Origin: Polyrhizophydium stewartii
Taxonomy: Eukaryota > Chytridiomycota > Chytridiomycetes > Rhizophydiales
NCBI GenBank assembly: GCA_027604665.1
Contig: JADGIZ010000613.1
Span: 1 to 11,118, forward strand
Reading direction: 5' to 3'
DNA length: 11,118 nt
Numbering within the stretch: the first letter of the stretch is position 1; each line of letters starts with the position of its first letter. A program made the position numbers and the translations under genes. Below are positions 783-10,924 of this stretch, in pieces. Under the pieces are notes generated by a model, which saw only the letters and a list, made by a program, of their open reading frames with translations, was not told the origin of the DNA and searched no databases.

Positions 783-3700
783 TCACTCGGCCAGCTTGAG
801 CATCTTCTTGAACTTGGTCTCCTCGTCGCTCCACGCCACAACCTTGCGCGACGACTCGCCGAGCTTCTCGGCCAAGAAGTCGATCCGCGAGCGCACGTTG
901 GTCCCCGGGCCCCACCAGGCCGCGCCGGAACTCGAGTGGTTGAGCGACGCGAGCGTCTGCATCTCGTCCTCGTAGCTCTTGAGCCGCTTCTCCTCGTCGG
1001 CCATCAGCTGCTTGGCCGTGCGGATGCCCATCGTCGCCACAAGCTTCTCGTCTTCGTTCATCTGCTTGAAGGCTGTGCGGTAGATCGGCTTGCCCGGACG
1101 CAGCGAGTACGGCCGCCCGTTGGCGTGGTCCAGGATGATGAGCCCGTCGCGCTCCATCTGGATCAGCGGCGACGGGTCTCCCTTGAAGATCGGGTGGATG
1201 CACAAGTTGTCAAAGGGCACCTGTCGGCAAGTACCCGATCCAGACACAACAGCCGAGACAGTGTCAGCAATAGCCACCGCACTGCTTCCCAAGACGCTCG
1301 GCGCCAACTACGCGATGCATCGCACCTCCTCAAACTTGCTCAGCATCTGCGCAACCTTCCAGAACTGCACGTCCGTCCACTGGCGCTTGCTCGAGTCCAT
1401 GTCCTCGCCCATACCAATCTTGCGCAGCTCCGTGATGGCGCGGTGCACCATATCGTCAAACGCGTCCGCGGGCGTCTGGCCCGCATTGACCTTCTGGATC
1501 AGCAGGTCAAGGTCGTGCAGACGGCCGCCGAGCGAGTCGAGGGCTGGCTTGAGAGCCTCGGTCGTGACGCGCGGCAGGCGCCGCTGCACATAAGCAAGCG
1601 CCGACTCGGGCGTCGCGTCCTTGAGAATGTAGCCCTCAACCGACTTGGTCGGGATCACTGGCGCGGCCAAGGCGTCGGTATCGGTATCAGCAGCGGCAGC
1701 GACAATTGACACACACGGCCCGCCGAGCGCCGCAAGCAAGAAACGCACCCTTGCCGAGCTCGCGAACGGCAGCCGGGTTGTCGCTCACAAACACAACGTG
1801 CGCCACGCGGTACTGCGCCGTGATGATGGCGGCCCACTGCAGACAGCAAGAGCAATGTCAGCCGCGCTCACACGACCCTCAAAAACGCCTCGCGTGAACT
1901 GTCGCACCTCGGTCAGCATGCTGTATAGGAACTCTCCGCGCGAGTTCTCCTTGCCCAAGTAGTCCTCGATGACAATGACGGGGTACTCGACCTCGGGCAC
2001 ATCAAGACTGTCCGCGTCGCGGCGGGAGAGCTCATCGAGCGCCTTGAGACGCGCCTGGCGCTGCTTGACGGTGAGATCGGTGACAGCCTTGGTGACGCAG
2101 TCAAGGATCTTGCGGATCTCGTTCTCCTTGGTCGTGCTGAGCCCGGCCTTGGCGCCGGTCGTCGCGGTGATGATGGCGTCCATGAACGTCGTGATCTGCG
2201 ACATGAAGCCAAACGACGGCGAAAAGTTGACCTGCGACGCCAAGCGCGAAATTAGGATGTGCTCGGGCTGGCCAACGAGATCCTCGCAGTGGATGACAAG
2301 CTTGTTCCTGCACGCGCAAGTTAGCAGCCCGCCCGGCCGCTTCAGCGCGACAGTCGGCCAGAACAGGCGATGAGCTGCCTACTTGTGATGCTCGAGCGCC
2401 TTGCGCACAAGGTCGGACTTGCCAGAGCCCTTGGGGCCGGACACGAGCACAAGCGTCTCGGGCGACTGCTTAAAGTGCTGCTCAAGACGCTTCTCCTCCT
2501 TCTCGCGCTCGGCCCATCCGAGCGAGCTGCGCAGCGTGCGCTTGGGCTTGACCGCGCCAGAGCCAAAGATGAAGCTTAGGATGGACGATTGTGCGCCAGA
2601 GAGAAGCTCCTCGGCGGTCTCAGCGTACTTGACAAAGCTGAAGCGGCCCGTGAGCTTGTTGGTGATGAAAAAGACGCGCAGGGGATCAAAGACGAGATAT
2701 GAGATCACGGCTGCGATGGCGAGCAGGATCGGCACCGAGATGCGCAGGTTGGCCATCATCCAGTTCCACAGCGAGAACGAGTTTGATTTCTGGGTTCGGC
2801 GAGTCGCATTGCGTCAGATAGCACCACGATACGGCCGCGGCGGCAAGACAACCATACGCACCTTCTCGTATCCAATGTGCACGCGGGTGCCGTCAATGGA
2901 CTCGCCGTGGATGCAGTTCCTGGCGCTGGTGGCCGAGCGCTTGTTGACAAACTCGACCGAGGCGAAGCGCGGCACGTCCTTGGACGACGACGGCTGCAGC
3001 GTCACATCCATGATGCGGCCGTAGTTGCGGAACTCGCGGTAGAGTTGCTCCTGCAGCGCATGTCAGAGGCACGAGCGATGTCCGCCGATGCGCCGCGCTC
3101 CAGCACCCACGCACCACGGTGAGATCCGGGCCGTGGAACTCGACGTGCAGGCGCGAGGTGGGAACGCGCGAGACCATGTCCTCGACCCACGGGCGGCCCT
3201 GGGCGGCGCAGCGCAAGCGCGCCGGTCAGCCAGCGGGTTCCTCCAGGCACGCGGCGCCATGGCACGCCACGGCACGCCACGGCACGCGGATCACCTTGAC
3301 CTCAAAGGCCTTGATCTTGCGCAGATTGAAGCTCGAGCGGACGCCCGTGTCGCGCACATGCGCCTGGATGGCCTCGACGGCCTCCTCGACCGTGCCGCCC
3401 CTGTATCTGAACTTGAGGTACAGGCCGCCCTCCTTGATGTTGGGCTCGGCCGAGCGGAACTGGAACTCGGCGCCTTCGGGGAAGTGCTCGGGAACGAGAC
3501 TGCGCCAGCGCTCCTCCTCGACGAACTTGGAGGCGTACTGGTTGATAAAGTACGTGCGCGGGTCGATCACGCCGAGCTTGAACGGGAAGATGTTCTCGAA
3601 CCACACCGTGCCCTTGTGGAAGTCGGGGTTCTCCATCGGGCCCTCGACAGGCGCCGACTCGGTCGGCACCTCGAGCTCGTGCTCGGTCACCTCGTTGGGG

Positions 3701-4087: not shown

Positions 4088-7000
4088 ATGCTGAAGCAGG
4101 CGACACGGCTGCTGGCGCTGGCGAGCCGGCCGGCCGCCGGCGTGCGGTGCATCCGCCCGGCAGGCATGCCACGGCGCACATCAGCCACTGCTCACGGGGG
4201 GCCCCGGGGCGACGCCCCGACACCGCCGCCGGTGTCGCACGGCGACGAGGACAGCGACAGCGACGAGCTCAGCGCAGCGCCGTCGAGGTCCGCGTCTGCG
4301 TTGGAGCTCAACGCCGACGCCTTCGGCAGGCCTGCAGACCCGAGCGCCGAAAGGGACGCCCAGCAAAAGTGGAACGACTTCAAAAACACGAGCATCTGGA
4401 AGCTCAAGACCTTCAACCGGCAGCGGTTCGAGGACGTGATTCAGGCCATCTTCGCCAACCCAGTGTCGGCCAAGGTCCGCCTTCATCACCTGGAGGAGAC
4501 AATGGCGCGCATGCAGCGGGTCGGGATCACTCCGAATGGGTATCTCGAGCTGCGCGTGCAAGTCATCCTCGCGGCGCGCTCCAAATCGTACGTGCTTGCG
4601 TCCAAGGCGGTCGCCGAGTTTGAGGCCGCGGGACACCGGGCCGACGAGATCATGCTGTCCGAGATGATCAAGTGCGCTGCACTCAGCCTCGGCCCGGAAA
4701 GGGCACACTCGGAGGCGCAAGCGTGGTTCCGCCGGATCGCCGGGATGCGGTTGCCCGTGTCGCAGTTATCGTGGCGCATCTACTACCACATGATCTTGGC
4801 GTGCCTTACCTCGCGCAATCTGCCCCGCGCGGAGCGCTGGTACAAGGCCCTCGAGGACCACGGGAAGCTCGCGCAGGCGCACAATGCCCTGATTGAATGG
4901 ATTATAGTGTATTGCTGCGAGATTCGTTACATCGAAGGAGCCATGATGTGGTTCGGCAAGGTTGGTTGGACTGTCTGCGTTCTGCCGTCTGTGTGAGTAT
5001 GGCCCGCTGACCGAGTGCGCATCGACACATCAAACGCAGCTTGCGGCAAGCGGGATCCGACCAAGGACTTCGGTGTTTGTGTCGCTGATGCGCATGTATC
5101 TCGAGCTCGGCCAGACGGCCGAGGTGTTCAAGATCGACCAGAGCATGCAGGTTCTGGGCGTGAGCCGCAGCCAGGAATCGTACGAGCTGCTCGTGAGCGC
5201 GCATTGCAAGGCGCGCCAGTTCCGGGAAGCGCGGCTCCTGTACGAGCAAATGTTCAGCAAAAACGTGCGGTGCTCGGTGCAATTGTACAAGACCTTTATC
5301 CGCGCGCACACCGAAGAAGGCAACTGGCGCCAGGTTATCAAGTGGTACGGCACCATGAGCCGCGAGCGGCTCAGAAGCCAGAGCGCGCAGTACTTGCACG
5401 CATATGCGCTGTACATGAGTCAAGGCCCGGACGCATTCGTGCGCTCGACTCTCCGCAACGTCATCCAGTGGCCCGTGAAGGGCTCCGAGAACACGCAACG
5501 CAAGGCTCAAGTCTTGCTGGACATGTGCGAGGTTGCCTCCAATGTCGAGGCGTGCCTGAACAGCTCTGACTTGGCTGCATTGCATCGCGTGCTGGAAGGG
5601 CTCGTGGCATCCACCCCCGCAAACGACACGGAGCCGCATAGCACGCTGCTTGACACAAGCAGCCGCACGCCGCCAAGGCTGCTGCTTCCGCCGCACTTGC
5701 TCCTCAGTGCGCTGCAAGCGCTTTTGAAAAGCGGAACTTTTGCGATCGTGCATCTGGCTGTATCTCTCTTTGAGCAAGCGCTGCCGTTGCCGCATTACGC
5801 GCAGATCGCAGGCATGGCCGATTCGCTCTTGCAGCACGTTGTGTCGATTGGCGATGCATCGACTGCAGAGCGCATCTATGATAAGGCCAGAAGCATTTCG
5901 TCGGCGAAACTGTCGAACAGCACCATCGATTCGTATGCAAGGCTTCTGTCTCGCAGTTCAGCCACGATCCACGCGGTCGACAACGTTTTTGCAGATATAG
6001 TTGACTTTGACATCACGCTCTCGGTCGAGTGCATGCAGGAGATTGTCTTTGCGTACTTGGCGCTCGGCGACCCAGGTCACGCCGCACAGTGGGCTGCTCG
6101 CATCATTCGGACACATCGCGCTGTTCCGCGCTCTGTTCTTGTTCAGCTCGCTGCCGAAAAGATCAGAAGCGGCACAGTCCGTGCGCAGGTGCTGAAATGG
6201 ATATTCAGGCTGCTCAGCGACACGCCAAGCCGACCCGCATCCTCTGTTACCAGCGGGAACAACGTGCATGACCTCCTGAGGATCGGTGGATTGGAGCGCG
6301 CAGACGTCCCGAGCGCCGCGCCACCCGCCTCGATCCTCGACCAGATGATCGACTCGGCCGTGCTCGGAAAAGACCTGGATCTGGTGTATCTGCAGGCGAA
6401 GCATATGGCGCTGGGCACGCGCGAGGCGATCCAAGATCTCCAGCTCATGAGTGCGGCGCGGGCATTGGATCTCGACGGATACCTCCAGATGGCCGAGTTC
6501 TGCCGCAGTGTGGGACATCCTGCATCGGGTATTACGTGGCTCAAGACTAGCGAATGCATTGGACTTGTCTCACAGCTCGACAAGGAAGCCGACAGAGCGA
6601 GCAGGTCGTCGCACGAGCTCGCGCGGTATGTCAGGGCATTGGCCGAGTGCCACTACAGCAGCGATCTCGATCCAAGCGAGGCGCTGCGGACAGGCAAAGT
6701 TTCGCGCGAGTGGCTCGAGCAGCACGCAGGCACGTGCGAGCACCGAGCCCGCACTCTTGAGCTGATTCATGCATTCGTGCAATCGGAGGCCCTAATCCGC
6801 GAATGTCAGGCCGGGGCTGCTGCCAAGGCCCGCCTTCTCTACATGGCGCTCCGCCAGCTTGGTGCTCAGCCGACCCGTGCAGCGGCGGAGGAGCTTGTCA
6901 AACTTTGCGCCACCAGCCGGCCGCTTCTCGGCCTCGCTGTGATTGTGGTGCGCGACATCACGCGAGATCCAGGCGGCCGCCCACCCCACATGCATGTCTA

Positions 7001-7526
7001 CAACACGCTTCTGGGCATGCTCCTGCAACACAAGTACCTGACGGCCGCGCACCGCCTGTTCGCGGCCATCGTAGATCAGAGCAAGCGCCGGACGTGGCGC
7101 TCGTTGCCGCTGCTGCCCGCGCGGCCATCGACGGGCAATCTGGTCAAGCTTCTTCTTGCCAACACCAAGCCACATCTCGATCCCGGAGCAGCAGGCGCGG
7201 GGGACGATCCTGGCCGTCAGGTCGGCCGACGGGTGCGCGTGCCGCGGCATGTGTGGGTGCCGCGCGTGCAAGCCTACACAGCGGCTCTGGCGACCACGGA
7301 CGCTATGCACCATCTGTCTCCGTGGGTGTGCGGCGAAATGGCCGCTCGACTCCGCAACGCGGATATGCTGGCCGATGCGCGCATCTGGCAGGATCTACAG
7401 GCCAGTGGCATCAAGAGGCGCGAGCGGGCCGAGGCGTCAGTCGTGGCGGCTGGTGGCCGTGTCGGCGAGGTAGATGAGGACGATCGACACCAACGGACTG
7501 GTGGCGGGGCAGCAGCTCAACTTTGA
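4088..7526 (+). CDS. Large pentatricopeptide-repeat (PPR) protein, probably mitochondrial
   Basis: Exons are 4088..4960 and 5040..7526, with a 79-bp phase-0 intron (donor GTTGGT, CTGAC branch-like site, acceptor CGCAG); 1119 aa. The N-terminus (Leu/Arg/Ala-rich, about 1-30) looks like a mitochondrial presequence and is followed by an acidic, Ser-rich linker (50-70). Paired-helix PPR-type repeats are clear at about 225-260, 280-297 (restored across the intron as WFGK/LAASGIRP), 298-332, 334-367, 369-401 and again at 940-975. The middle is helical and more degenerate. PPR proteins bind organellar RNA and control its processing, stability or translation. Size and layout recall the Pet309/CYA-5 class of cox1-specific factors, but orthology cannot be asserted. 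The tail (about 1085-1119) is Gly/Ala/Arg-rich and looks non-conserved. The frame closes with three consecutive in-frame stops (TGA TAA TGA, 7524-7532). Confidence 0.85.
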
Positions 7527-7706
7527 TAATGAACTGTATTCATCGCTGCGCTCGCAAGAGAGCCTCTCGTTTCTGTGTTTTGGTTCGTCGGTCTGCGTGG
7601 CCACCGCCAAGGCGTTGTGTGGTTTGCGCTTTCCACGGCAGTCGAGTCATGCAGCGAGTGGGCTGAGCAAGCGAGTGCAGGATGGCGGATCGTGCCAGCG
7701 CGAGTC
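7527..7706. other. 180-bp tail-to-tail region between the PPR and selenoprotein H genes
   Basis: The region holds the 3' ends of both convergent genes. The plus strand shows no further gene. The minus strand contains the SECIS-like hairpin described separately. No AATAAA signal was recognised on either strand. Confidence 0.6.
7566..7658 (-). promoter_or_regulatory. Candidate SECIS element in the selenoprotein H 3' UTR
   Basis: Read on the minus strand, the hairpin begins 57 nt after the TAA stop. The expected parts are present in order: ATGA (7650-7647) followed by C, an unpaired AAA (7632-7630) and GA in a CGAA context (7587-7584), which allows tandem G.A/A.G pairs at the quartet. Helix II pairs 7645-7633 with 7600-7588 by hand folding: 11 Watson-Crick pairs, one A/A mismatch and two single-base bulges (7637, 7590). 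After AAA a further mini-stem (7622-7619 with 7604-7601, then 7614-7612 with 7607-7605 around CTTG) would make it a Form-2-like SECIS. Helix I is weaker (7658-7655 with 7569-7566). An alternative 7-bp pairing, 7657-7651 with 7548-7542, is perfect but far away. No folding energy was computed. Confidence 0.5.
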
Positions 7707-8489
7707 TTACGACGACGACGAGGCCGCCGCGGCGCGAGTGATCTGATCAGCGACCAGATCAACGGCAACGGCGTGATCCACAAACTTTTCCTTGCGGGGC
7801 GGACCCTTCTTGAGGCCGTTCCAGACCGTCACCGCATCTGCGCGCACGGCGGCAAGGTCAGCCGACGCTCGAGCGGGGCAGCATGAGGTGTGAGACGCAC
7901 CGTCCGAGCCGGGTGCCTTGACATGGATGTCAAACGACTTGGATCGGGGCTTGGTCGGGTTGATCAGGACCGTCGCAGCGGGATAAGCATCCTTGAGCGC
8001 TTTGCTCAGGCGCTGCCCCTGCGACTTGTACGTCGATCAGCTGGTGCAGTGCTCGACGGTGATGACCACGCCGTCGCCGCTGGGCCGCGGTCCGTTTGGT
8101 CCGCCTTGGTCGCGGGCCGCGGCAGCAGCAGGTGCGGCAGCAGCAGCAGGTATGGCAGATGCGGCAGACGCGACGGCGGGGACCGGCTTGGCGTCGCCGC
8201 CGCGGGACGGGGCCGCCGGCGCGGCAGCGGCATCAACAGCGGCCTTGGATCGGGCGGCACCAGCGCGGGGACGCTTGGCAGGCGCGTCAGCGGCGGCGGC
8301 GGCAGCGGACTCGCCGAGGTCGTGGTCCGCGGCAGAGGGCGCCGCGCGCTTGGACGCGGCGCGGGCAGAGCGGCGCGAGGCAGAGGCGGCCGCGGGGTCG
8401 CCCTGGTCGGCGGCAGGCGGGCCGCCGGCGCCGGGGTCGTCTGGCGCGGCAGGCCCGGCGGCCGCCGCGGGCTTGCGGCGCGGCGGCAT
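7707..8489 (-). CDS. SELENOH: Selenoprotein H (SELENOH/Rdx family) with in-frame UGA for selenocysteine
   Basis: Exons are 8489..7901 and 7837..7707, with a 63-bp phase-1 intron (donor GTGCGT, CTGAC branch-like site, acceptor GCGCAG); 239 aa including Sec151, stop TAA. Residues 1-140 form an Ala/Pro-rich, basic, disordered N-terminus (PPRRKP, AKRPRAG) that may act as a nuclear or AT-hook-like region, much longer than in the roughly 120-aa animal proteins. The thioredoxin-like domain starts at VVITVEHC. The redox motif is C148-T-S-U151, with UGA at 8039..8037. It is followed by QRLSKALKDAYP, INPTKPRSKSFDI and, across the intron, VWNGLKKGPPRK. These match animal SELENOH blocks (VEHCTSU, NPTKPR, W.GIKKGPPRK) at the same spacing. 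Family members are nucleolar or nuclear redox regulators. The start was chosen because the frame upstream only overlaps the divergent UBA gene, and because animal SELENOH also opens Met-x-Pro-Arg with basic residues. Neighbouring genes end in TGA, so the code is standard. Confidence 0.9.
8037..8039 (-). other. UGA codon recoded as selenocysteine (Sec151)
   Basis: The minus-strand codon TGA follows codons for His-Cys-Thr-Ser and precedes Ser-Thr-Tyr-Lys. It falls exactly where SELENOH carries Sec in its CxxU motif. The frame stays open after it, and homology continues directly for 45 codons to the splice site and on into exon 2. Confidence 0.88.
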
Positions 8490-8576
8490 GGCGATGGGCA
8501 AACCCCGATCGAGCGCCACGGAACCGAGTTTGTCAGTCCCCCGAGCACACACCCGCCGGCCGGCCAGCGAGACAGC
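8490..8576. promoter_or_regulatory. 87-bp divergent promoter region, selenoprotein H / UBA protein
   Basis: This GC-rich spacer separates the two divergent start codons and should hold both 5' UTRs or a shared core promoter. A run of GCCGGCCGGC is visible in it. No TATA box or recognised factor site was seen. Confidence 0.5.
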
Positions 8577-9503
8577 ATGTCGGGCAGCATCAACCCCAAC
8601 GAGGACTTTGCTGGGCAGCTCAAGGTGCTGGCGTCGATGGGCTTCACGGACATGCCGCTGAACCGCCGCGCGCTGCGGCAGTCCATGGGCCGTGTGAACC
8701 AGGCCATCGACCTGATTGTTGCCGGGGAGGTCGTGGACGACACGCCGGCGGCCGGCGCTGGCGGGCACGGCGCCGAGGACCGCCCGCTTGCCGAGATGTA
8801 CGTGCGCACGTCGCACCCCGGCGGCTCGGTCTTCCGCCCTGTTGCGCCCGGCGCCGCGCACCAGCAGCCGCCGCAGGACAGCAGCCTGCCGATGTTCATC
8901 TTCCCGGTGCTCGACCCGCTGCAGCAGGACAAGGTGCTGCAGCTCGCCGGCCTGGGCTTCAACGACGAGGGTCGCATCCGCCATGCGCTGCACAAGAGCA
9001 AGTGGAACGTCGAGGTCGCTGCGGGTCTTCTGCTCGAGGACTATGGCAGCCTCGACTCGGGCTTTTCGGGAACCCCCCTGCCTTCCGCTGGCGGCCAGGT
9101 GCAGTTCCAGTATCGGCCGCAGCAGCACCAGGGCCAGTCGCACTTCCAGCAGCCGCATCAGCCGCATCAGCCGCATCAGCAGCAGCAGCAGCCATACCAC
9201 CATCCGCAGACCCAGCACCGCAGCGCCGATCCGTACTCGGCGCTGCGGTCCGTTCAGCCGACCGAGCGCTTCTCATACACATCGGGCCCTGGCGCAAGTG
9301 GTGCGGCTGTGCAAGCCGCTCCCGCCAGTCACAGCAGCGCACACAACCCGTTTGGCGGCAGCCCATCGGCCGCGCGCTCGCCGCCGCAGCCGTCGCTGCC
9401 TGCCCGCCCGGCAGCAGCGATCTCGTCCTCGAACCGGTACACCTCGACTCAGAAGCAGGTGCTCACCGAGTTTGATCCCTTCTCGGACGACAACAGGATC
9501 TGA
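8577..9503 (+). CDS. Two-UBA-domain protein with NPF and DPF motifs, possible endocytic ubiquitin adaptor
   Basis: Intronless, 308 aa, stop TGA. The ATG at 8577 is chosen because it opens just before the first UBA domain; the frame runs further upstream but only across the divergent spacer and opposite the selenoprotein gene. UBA-like domain 1 spans about 11-50, with the MGF loop at 21-23. UBA-like domain 2 spans about 114-155, with LGF at 126-128 and a W143 helix. Residues 170-290 are disordered and Gln/His/Pro/Ser-rich, including (QPH)3Q5. NPF (257-259) is the EH-domain ligand motif, SLPARPAA is a possible SH3 ligand and DPF (300-302) is an AP-2/clathrin-adaptor-type motif near the C-terminus. 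UBA domains bind ubiquitin, so the combination suggests an adaptor that links ubiquitinated cargo to endocytic scaffolds. This is inferred from motifs, and no named family was recognised. Confidence 0.8.
   Translation: MSGSINPNEDFAGQLKVLASMGFTDMPLNRRALRQSMGRVNQAIDLIVAGEVVDDTPAAGAGGHGAEDRPLAEMYVRTSHPGGSVFRPVAPGAAHQQPPQDSSLPMFIFPVLDPLQQDKVLQLAGLGFNDEGRIRHALHKSKWNVEVAAGLLLEDYGSLDSGFSGTPLPSAGGQVQFQYRPQQHQGQSHFQQPHQPHQPHQQQQQPYHHPQTQHRSADPYSALRSVQPTERFSYTSGPGASGAAVQAAPASHSSAHNPFGGSPSAARSPPQPSLPARPAAAISSSNRYTSTQKQVLTEFDPFSDDNRI
9150..9191 (+). repeat. Tandem CAGCCGCAT x3 followed by CAG x5
   Basis: A 9-bp unit (CAG CCG CAT) repeats three times at 9150-9176 and runs into five CAG triplets at 9177-9191. 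It encodes QPHQPHQPH and QQQQQ in the disordered part of the UBA protein. This is a likely site of length variation. Confidence 0.9.
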
Positions 9504-9735: not shown

Positions 9736-10924
9736 TTAGGCCTTGAAGGAGAAGGTGTGCGGCTCCGACGGGTACGACGGGCCCGAGCGCTGGATAACGA
9801 CGTGGGCGACGTAGTGGCCCGCGGCGACCGACTGCTCGACCGAGTGGCCCTGGACGTACTGCGACAGGAAGCCACCGACAAAGGCGTCGCCGGCGCCGTT
9901 GGTGTCGACAATGTCCTTGACGTCAATGGGGATGATGGGGAAGGTCTTGGTGGTGCCGTTGTAGGCGATGACGGTGGGCTGGGCGCCGTGAGTGAAGACG
10001 ACGAGGCGCGGGCGCAGGGTGTTGGCCTTGGGGAGGGCGGCGACCTTGAGCGCGATCTCGCCGAGGTCCGTGGTGCCAAAGTTGTTGGCGGTCGAGAAGG
10101 CCTCGGCCTCGGCCTCGTTGCCTGGATGTGCTTTGTCAGCAGCTCGAACAAAAAGGCGGCGTGAGGCGCGGGACGACCCGGCGGCCGACGCCGCGTCGCG
10201 GCGGCCGCGGGGCGGACGGCATGCGGGCACGCGGGCGGGCGGACGGCATGCGGGCAGCGTGGCGGCGGGACGCACCGAAAACAACGTCGGCGTACTGCAG
10301 CAGCTCGCCGAGCTGCTGGCCAAAGAACTGCGGGATGAACGGCGCCGACAGGTTGATCGAGACAACCTTGTTGGCCTCGGCGGCGTGCTTGGCGATCTTG
10401 AGCGCCGACGGCGGCGAGACGGTCAGGAAGTAGCCGCCAATGTAGAAGTAGCGGGCGTGCTCGACGAGTGCCCAGATATCCGGGCGCTCGAGGTGGTCGA
10501 TCGAGAAGCAGTTGGCGGCCTGCAGGTCCGTGACGAGGCAGCGCTGGATGCCCGTGATCAAGACGGCGCACTTGCCCGTCGGCGTGCCCTCGAGCACCTG
10601 GTACTCGGTGCGGAGGCCGTCCTTGGCGGCGACCTGCGACAGCGTCTCGGCCTCCTTGTCCTTGCCGACGGCGCCGAGGTAGACGGTCGACTTGGGGGGC
10701 AGCAGCCACTGCGCGCCGCGCAGCGTGTTCTGGGCGGCGCCGCCGGCAATGTATTGCACCTGGTAGTCGCGCGTGAGCTCGCCGTAGAGCGGCTTGTGCT
10801 TGTCCTCGGCGAGGATGGCGTCGTTGCCCTTGAGGCCGTACTTGGCGAGCAGCTCGGGCTTGACGACGGCCGAGATGTCGAGCAGCGGGTTCTCAATGCC
10901 CAGGAGGATGTACTCGTTCGACAT
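9736..10924 (-). CDS. ADO1: Adenosine kinase (PfkB/ribokinase family)
   Basis: Exons are 10924..10276 and 10121..9736, with a 154-bp phase-1 intron (donor GTGCGT, GCTGAC branch-like site, acceptor ATCCAG); 344 aa, the usual length. The enzyme phosphorylates adenosine to AMP with ATP in the cytosol or nucleus. It salvages purine and removes the adenosine released by S-adenosylhomocysteine hydrolysis, keeping methylation running. Visible motifs are ENPLLDIS (11-18), containing the substrate-binding Asp16, and AGGAAQNT (60-67), the first PfkB signature. Others are FLTVSPPS, SINLSAPFI, FGNEAEAEAF (join restored exactly across the intron) and DTNGAGDAF (289-297), which carries the anion hole and the catalytic Asp295. 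No key residue is missing. The start lies immediately before the conserved N-terminus. The symbol follows the yeast gene (ADK in animals). Confidence 0.95.
10210..10256. repeat. 27-bp-period direct repeat inside the adenosine kinase intron
   Basis: Two identical 20-bp copies (10210-10229 and 10237-10256) beginning GGGCGGACGG are separated by 7 bp. They lie inside the 154-bp intron (10275..10122). Each copy contains GCATGC. The duplication probably explains why this intron is the longest in the window. Confidence 0.85.

Follow-up and report, generated by a model that had tools for sequence, protein, structure and literature searches.

The window, i.e., the whole stretch of 11,118 bases (65% GC) analysed here, comes from Polyrhizophydium stewartii, which NCBI places in the Rhizophydiales (Chytridiomycota), the same order as Batrachochytrium, and its minus strand carries a predicted selenoprotein H (SelenoH) gene at 7707..8489, intron included, recognised from its frame and its matches to family profiles. 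Around it lie the main open reading frame for a PPR protein (4962..7526, plus strand; Pfam PPR_2, 44.6 bits), with an upstream frame from 4088, a gene for a UBA-domain protein (8577..9503, plus strand; Pfam UBA, 32.3 bits), and a two-exon, adenosine-kinase-like gene of the pfkB family (9736..10924, minus strand; Pfam PfkB, 120.1 bits with the frame of the first exon). The SelenoH and UBA-domain genes are divergent, with start codons less than 90 bases apart (8489 to 8577), and, given this arrangement, they may have a common promoter.

The SelenoH frame (8489..7707, minus strand) opens with an ATG at 8489 and comprises 261 codons, its TAA end counted. Apart from the intron, it is interrupted by a single internal stop, a TGA at 8039..8037, which is preceded by VVITVEHCTS and followed by STYKSQGQRLSKALKDAYPAATVLINPTKPRSKSFDIHVKAPGSD, and which is the putative selenocysteine (Sec) codon of the CxxU redox motif, here C-T-S-TGA within E-H-C-T-S-U. 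The intron of 63 nt (7900..7838), predicted from its splice-site letters and from the continuity of the family across it, reads GTGCGT...GGCTGACC...GCGCAG, with GT..AG ends, a CTGAC branch-point-like site, and no in-frame stops, and the exons join as ...GSD|DAVTVWNGLKKGPPRKEKF... after splicing. An N-terminal extension rich in Ala and basic residues (about 8489..8090) precedes the Rdx domain.

The spliced domain, in which Cys was substituted at the Sec site for the profile searches only, scores 43.2 bits with NCBIfam TIGR02174 (SelT/SelW/SelH; curated cut-off 34.2) and 24.3 bits with Pfam Rdx PF10262 (cut-off 22.6), and it has both the NPTKPR and the WxGxKKGPPRK blocks, which we take to be markers of SelenoH. 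A search of 5.8 billion proteins yielded 12 candidates, one of which, P0001, was significant (E <= 0.001). This protein of 65 residues bears the EukProt source code Pgem, perhaps the ichthyosporean Pirum gemmata, and it starts downstream of the Sec position; it has both blocks and aligns with the part of SelenoH downstream of the TGA at 50% identity over 58 residues (INPTKPRSK and GLKKGPPRK being common to the two). Such an identity to an independent eukaryotic protein suggests that the part past the TGA is truly coding, and so short a list of relatives would be expected if the UGA makes SelenoH genes seldom annotated. A search of the PDB gave no significant match (best C17orf37, or Rdx12, E 0.49), and the AlphaFold model, made from the single sequence without an alignment, has a mean pLDDT of 40.9, too poor for judging a thioredoxin-like fold. 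The first-pass annotation had read VEHC-T-S-UGA on the minus strand at 8039..8037, which the frame confirms, and had continued the frame past the UGA through a clean 63-bp intron, which stands as first written; its assignment to SelenoH of the Rdx family is upheld by the two profiles over their cut-offs and by the two blocks.

Three neighbouring frames have UGA as their normal stop, at 785..783 (minus strand), 7524..7526 (plus strand, PPR), and 9501..9503 (plus strand, UBA-domain), as had also been claimed, and UGA terminates the SPS and SecS frames of the same genome as well. The standard code is thus upheld, and a reassigned code was rejected, given the stops of at least three neighbouring frames.

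Parts for Sec synthesis and delivery sought in the same genome

The assembly searched consists of 690 contigs with a total of 12,858,570 bases, which amounts to some 41% of the 31 Mb published (291 scaffolds, BUSCO 81.4%, according to a passage of PMC12204190). Four exon matches to SecS were found on contig C673 by a profile search of the genome, the best of which, with 230.2 bits, exceeds the cut-off of 224.85, and the spliced sequence scores 456.1 bits with the human SecS of the PDB. The SecS frame is intact, and the spliced protein equals P. stewartii HK105_208641 (P0002) except for five residues at one splice junction. This match, together with the NCBI placement, bears out the fungal host that had been proposed and specifies it as P. 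stewartii.

SPS was also found (TIGR00476, 165.6 bits against a cut-off of 125), again with an intact frame. Its active site reads FRLTAWAQLKG-TGA-G|intron|GCKVPRDELL, where the TGA (2458..2456 of locus L007, or C175:14074..14072) falls exactly at the U of LKG-U-GCKV, which makes this an SPS of the Sec type. Another TGA, inside the region matched by the profile, is intronic and was rejected as the Sec codon, which lies just upstream. After the correction of one junction, this SPS is HK105_206114 (P0122) along the length of the latter; the first residue of the public model, a Met, lies past the U site, as would be expected if the independent assembly carries a TGA there too. The SPS intron starts one base past the Sec codon (TGA G|GTGCGT), so that an exon junction adjoins the recoded codon, which would also help gene finders to miss the first exon.

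The first-pass annotation had held that the organism should keep the whole Sec machinery. This was borne out for two of six parts, SecS and SPS, whereas tRNA-Sec, eEFSec, PSTK, and SBP2 were not found in the 12.86 Mb searched of about 31 Mb. The contigs inspected were all of at least 10,063 bases, and small contigs probably lie outside the 12.86 Mb; since 12.86 of 31 Mb were searched, these four absences do not count against the Sec trait. For tRNA-Sec, there was no Rfam match over the cut-off, and two candidates below it (29.6 and 29.5 bits), both on AT-rich contigs, were rejected, as ARAGORN identified them as tRNAs whose anticodons are CTA and GTA. Three pattern searches of the same sequence gave, respectively, 0 matches, 35 matches (13 in the reversed control), nine of them with TTCAAA but, by eye, with no fully paired anticodon stem in any of the nine, and 0 matches (6 in the control). 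The tRNA with the CTA anticodon lies right behind a tRNA-Pro (L005 1500-1575, contig C31, 38% GC), on an AT-rich contig that is probably mitochondrial; presumably, it would fit a UAG read as Leu in chytrid mitochondria. For eEFSec, PF21208 had no match in the 12.86 Mb, none of the 19 matches to PF00009 was eEFSec by eye (they were read as eIF2-gamma, eRF3, Hbs1, etc.), and the human eEFSec as a query found other GTPases only. For PSTK, TIGR03575 was without a match in the 12.86 Mb, and, for SBP2, the seven L7Ae matches there (five genes) were by eye ribosomal or snoRNP proteins, namely eS12, eL8, NHP2, SNU13, and eL30.

SECIS-like hairpins behind both TGA genes

Mariotti et al., in 2019, reportedly found that most fungal selenoproteins are without consensus SECIS elements. 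Behind the SelenoH gene, a descriptor match predicts a SECIS-like hairpin in the 3' region (7566..7658, minus strand), some 324 nt past the Sec TGA when counted along the spliced mRNA. Its helix I pairs CTCGCTG (7658..7652) with CAG..CGAG (down to 7566), and it has an ATGA at 7650..7647, then 14 nt, an apical AAA from 7632, and a GA at 7586..7585, with a helix II of 11 bp. The hairpin behind the SPS gene reads ATGA-13 nt-AAA...GA from L007 1242 downwards (minus strand) and is closed by the helix GTCCAG/CTGGAT. The two are alike in their ATGA, 11-bp helix, apical AAA, and GA, and in their position shortly after the stop codons. The UGA that ends the SPS frame, at about 1275 (L007/C175, minus strand), is only 33 nt upstream of the ATGA at 1242, and presumably it is because of this closeness to the SECIS that it still terminates.

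The spacing step of SECISearch, as given in a passage of PMC2375036, is NTGA, 10-13 nt, AA, 15-39 nt, GA. By this step alone, the SPS hairpin is within the spacings, whereas the SelenoH hairpin gives 0 strict hits, its distances being 14 nt (instead of 10-13) and 44 nt (instead of 15-39). Neither hairpin had a match in the Rfam search; the single Rfam match on the window was a sub-threshold ybhL, not a SECIS.

The descriptor was composed after the inspection of both hairpin regions, so the figures that it gives for scan and shuffles flatter it. It matches four sites in the 180,719 bases of window and loci (counting both strands and keeping overlaps between loci), two of the four directly behind the two UGA genes. 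Among 5000 dinucleotide shuffles of each 250-nt region, it finds any site in 11 for SelenoH and 25 for SPS, and a site no less stable than the real one in 2 and 0, respectively. In a looser scan of 185,314 letters of loci, both strands counted, 52 sites folded at -8 kcal/mol or below, and such loose criteria do not discriminate. When folded freely, the 3' region of 207 nt was no more stable than its shuffles (z -0.97).

Readings of the in-frame TGA

Very probably, this chytrid gene codes for a genuine selenoprotein H of P. stewartii, a reading to which, from sequence comparison, we give a probability of roughly 0.93. That it is a genuine selenoprotein had already been proposed, and the proposal is supported by SecS, by an SPS with a TGA in its active site, and by SECIS-like hairpins behind both TGA genes. 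Sec-tRNA(Sec) would be made through SPS and SecS, and the eukaryotic Sec machinery would bring it to the UGA at 8039..8037, the decoding of which would be directed by the SECIS-type hairpin in the 3' UTR (7658..7566). The product would be a thioredoxin-like redox protein of the Rdx family, with C-T-S-U at its active site and an N-terminal extension that is basic and possibly nuclear.

Alternatively, the UGA could be a plain stop, in a gene that is left over from a lost Sec trait or that gives only a truncated product of 149 residues; four of the six parts of the machinery were indeed not found in the 12.86 Mb searched, and the SelenoH hairpin is outside the strict SECIS spacing. However, a relic should decay, and here the frame, the intron, and the family blocks past the TGA are intact, as are SecS and SPS, the latter using a TGA itself; we consider a plain stop highly improbable.

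Another possibility is the insertion of an ordinary amino acid, by read-through or reassignment and without Sec. Nothing specific speaks for it beyond the parts for Sec delivery not having been located in the 12.86 Mb, whereas UGA terminates at least three neighbouring frames as well as SPS and SecS, both internal UGAs are exactly at known Sec positions, and the enzymes of Sec synthesis, SecS and SPS, are present, which leaves this explanation extremely improbable. In a fragmented assembly (690 contigs) such as the one from which the TGA was read, the TGA might also be suspected of being a sequencing error, or the contig of being a contaminant from an animal or protist, but the probability is minute: the canonical Sec site has a TGA in two genes on two contigs; SecS and SPS, except at our own splice junctions, do not differ from named proteins of P. 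stewartii; in another assembly, the HK105 genes for these proteins are on longer contigs (98,391 and 296,633 bases versus 10,142 and 21,415 here); and the GC content of the window, 65%, fits most of the nuclear-type loci examined.

The Sec trait in fungi and known systems

Fungi were long thought to be devoid of selenoproteins, and Amses et al. (PNAS 2022, 69 zoosporic genomes) are said to have mapped the use of selenocysteine across zoosporic fungi. A paper of 2021 still has a passage stating that fungi are without selenoproteins (PMC8559351). Passages of other reports describe Sec in nine early-branching species of Chytridiomycota, Zoopagomycota, and Mucoromycota (PMC12611240, PMC10386755, PMC10778597, PMC11378755), in agreement with the statement of the first-pass annotation that reports of Sec in fungi are confined to a few early lineages, and SelenoH with the Sec machinery is described as common to Harpellales and expressed in Zancudomyces culisetae (PMC12611240). 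Amses et al. 2022 is cited for P. stewartii in PMC12204190, where the string 'selen' has no occurrence, and the Sec trait of the species may already be in one of the figures of Amses et al. No report of the P. stewartii SelenoH gene was found among the papers searched on selenoproteins or Sec of chytrids, Rhizophydiales, or zoosporic fungi, or among those on Polyrhizophydium. Since Sec and SelenoH of early fungi are already in print, this gene adds a branch and not a new kind.

The protein search with SecS scored 8000 candidates, 2465 of which were under the threshold; the best 120 of these 2465 were listed, many of them unnamed. The named fungal SecS among the matches listed are those of P. 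stewartii, Entophlyctis helioformis (59%), Polychytrium aggregatum (51%), and Hyaloraphidium curvatum (50%). In a tree of 20 chosen rows, these four group together (93/88), with P. stewartii and Entophlyctis joined at 100/100, a grouping that speaks for vertical descent. Among the SPS matches listed (best 120 of 3579) there are at least eight names that we take to be fungal: P. stewartii, Entophlyctis, Polychytrium, Paraphysoderma, Jimgerdemannia, Endogone, Gonapodya, and Synchytrium. Seven of the eight protein models (P0122, P0123, P0125, P0127, P0139, P0157, and P0211) are without the Sec site and start downstream of it, and that of Gonapodya reads WGCKVPQ there, with foreign sequence before; the hosts of the shortened models presumably include Blastocladiomycota and Endogonales. 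These models fit a UGA at the Sec site in each of these genes, though they do not prove it, and they hint that fungal Sec use is wider than nine species; public fungal SPS proteins cut at the UGA would mean that annotation hides the Sec trait.

Batrachochytrium was absent from both the best 120 of 2465 SecS matches and the best 120 of 3579 SPS matches. An orthologue should rank near the top of these matches, so we take its absence from those listed as a sign of a loss of the Sec trait in Batrachochytrium. The water-living P. stewartii is described, in a passage of PMC12204190, as a closer saprophytic relative of the frog pathogen Batrachochytrium dendrobatidis than Homolaphlyctis, and it is the host's position beside Batrachochytrium, along with the pair of hairpins, that gives its SelenoH gene its value. 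Tentatively, and with somewhat less than even confidence, we suggest that Sec decoding was kept in Rhizophydiales until the split between Polyrhizophydium and Batrachochytrium and was then lost towards the amphibian pathogens, while the SECIS of the keeper would range from consensus (SPS) to stretched (SelenoH, whose 5' arm has 14 nt and whose AA and GA lie 44 nt apart), an intermediate between animal SECIS elements and the altered signals that other fungi are reported to have. P. stewartii and B. dendrobatidis make a close pair for dating and testing a loss of the trait, and the two 3' hairpins of P. stewartii, of which one is consensus and the other stretched, are a test case for whether fungal SECIS elements differ from the animal consensus.

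Of the closest known systems, the SelenoH of Harpellales (Zancudomyces culisetae and relatives) is, by the published passages used for the comparison, alike in being fungal and in having Sec, predicted here, with Sec machinery, of which SecS and SPS were found here; P. stewartii differs in its phylum, Chytridiomycota, and in its GC-rich genome. Animal SELENOH (human, Drosophila BthD), with its CxxU, NPTKPR, and W-G-KKGPPRK motifs, is matched in all three and in a Sec predicted to be coded by UGA, whereas the P. stewartii protein has a much longer Ala/basic-rich N-terminal extension, and its gene has one intron of 63 nt and a slightly long SECIS spacing. Finally, the P. stewartii SPS resembles the eukaryotic Sec-containing enzymes (SEPHS2/SelD) in its LKG-U-GCK site and in a SECIS within the published spacings, and it differs from them in an intron right after the Sec codon and in a terminal UGA that lies 33 nt before the SECIS core.
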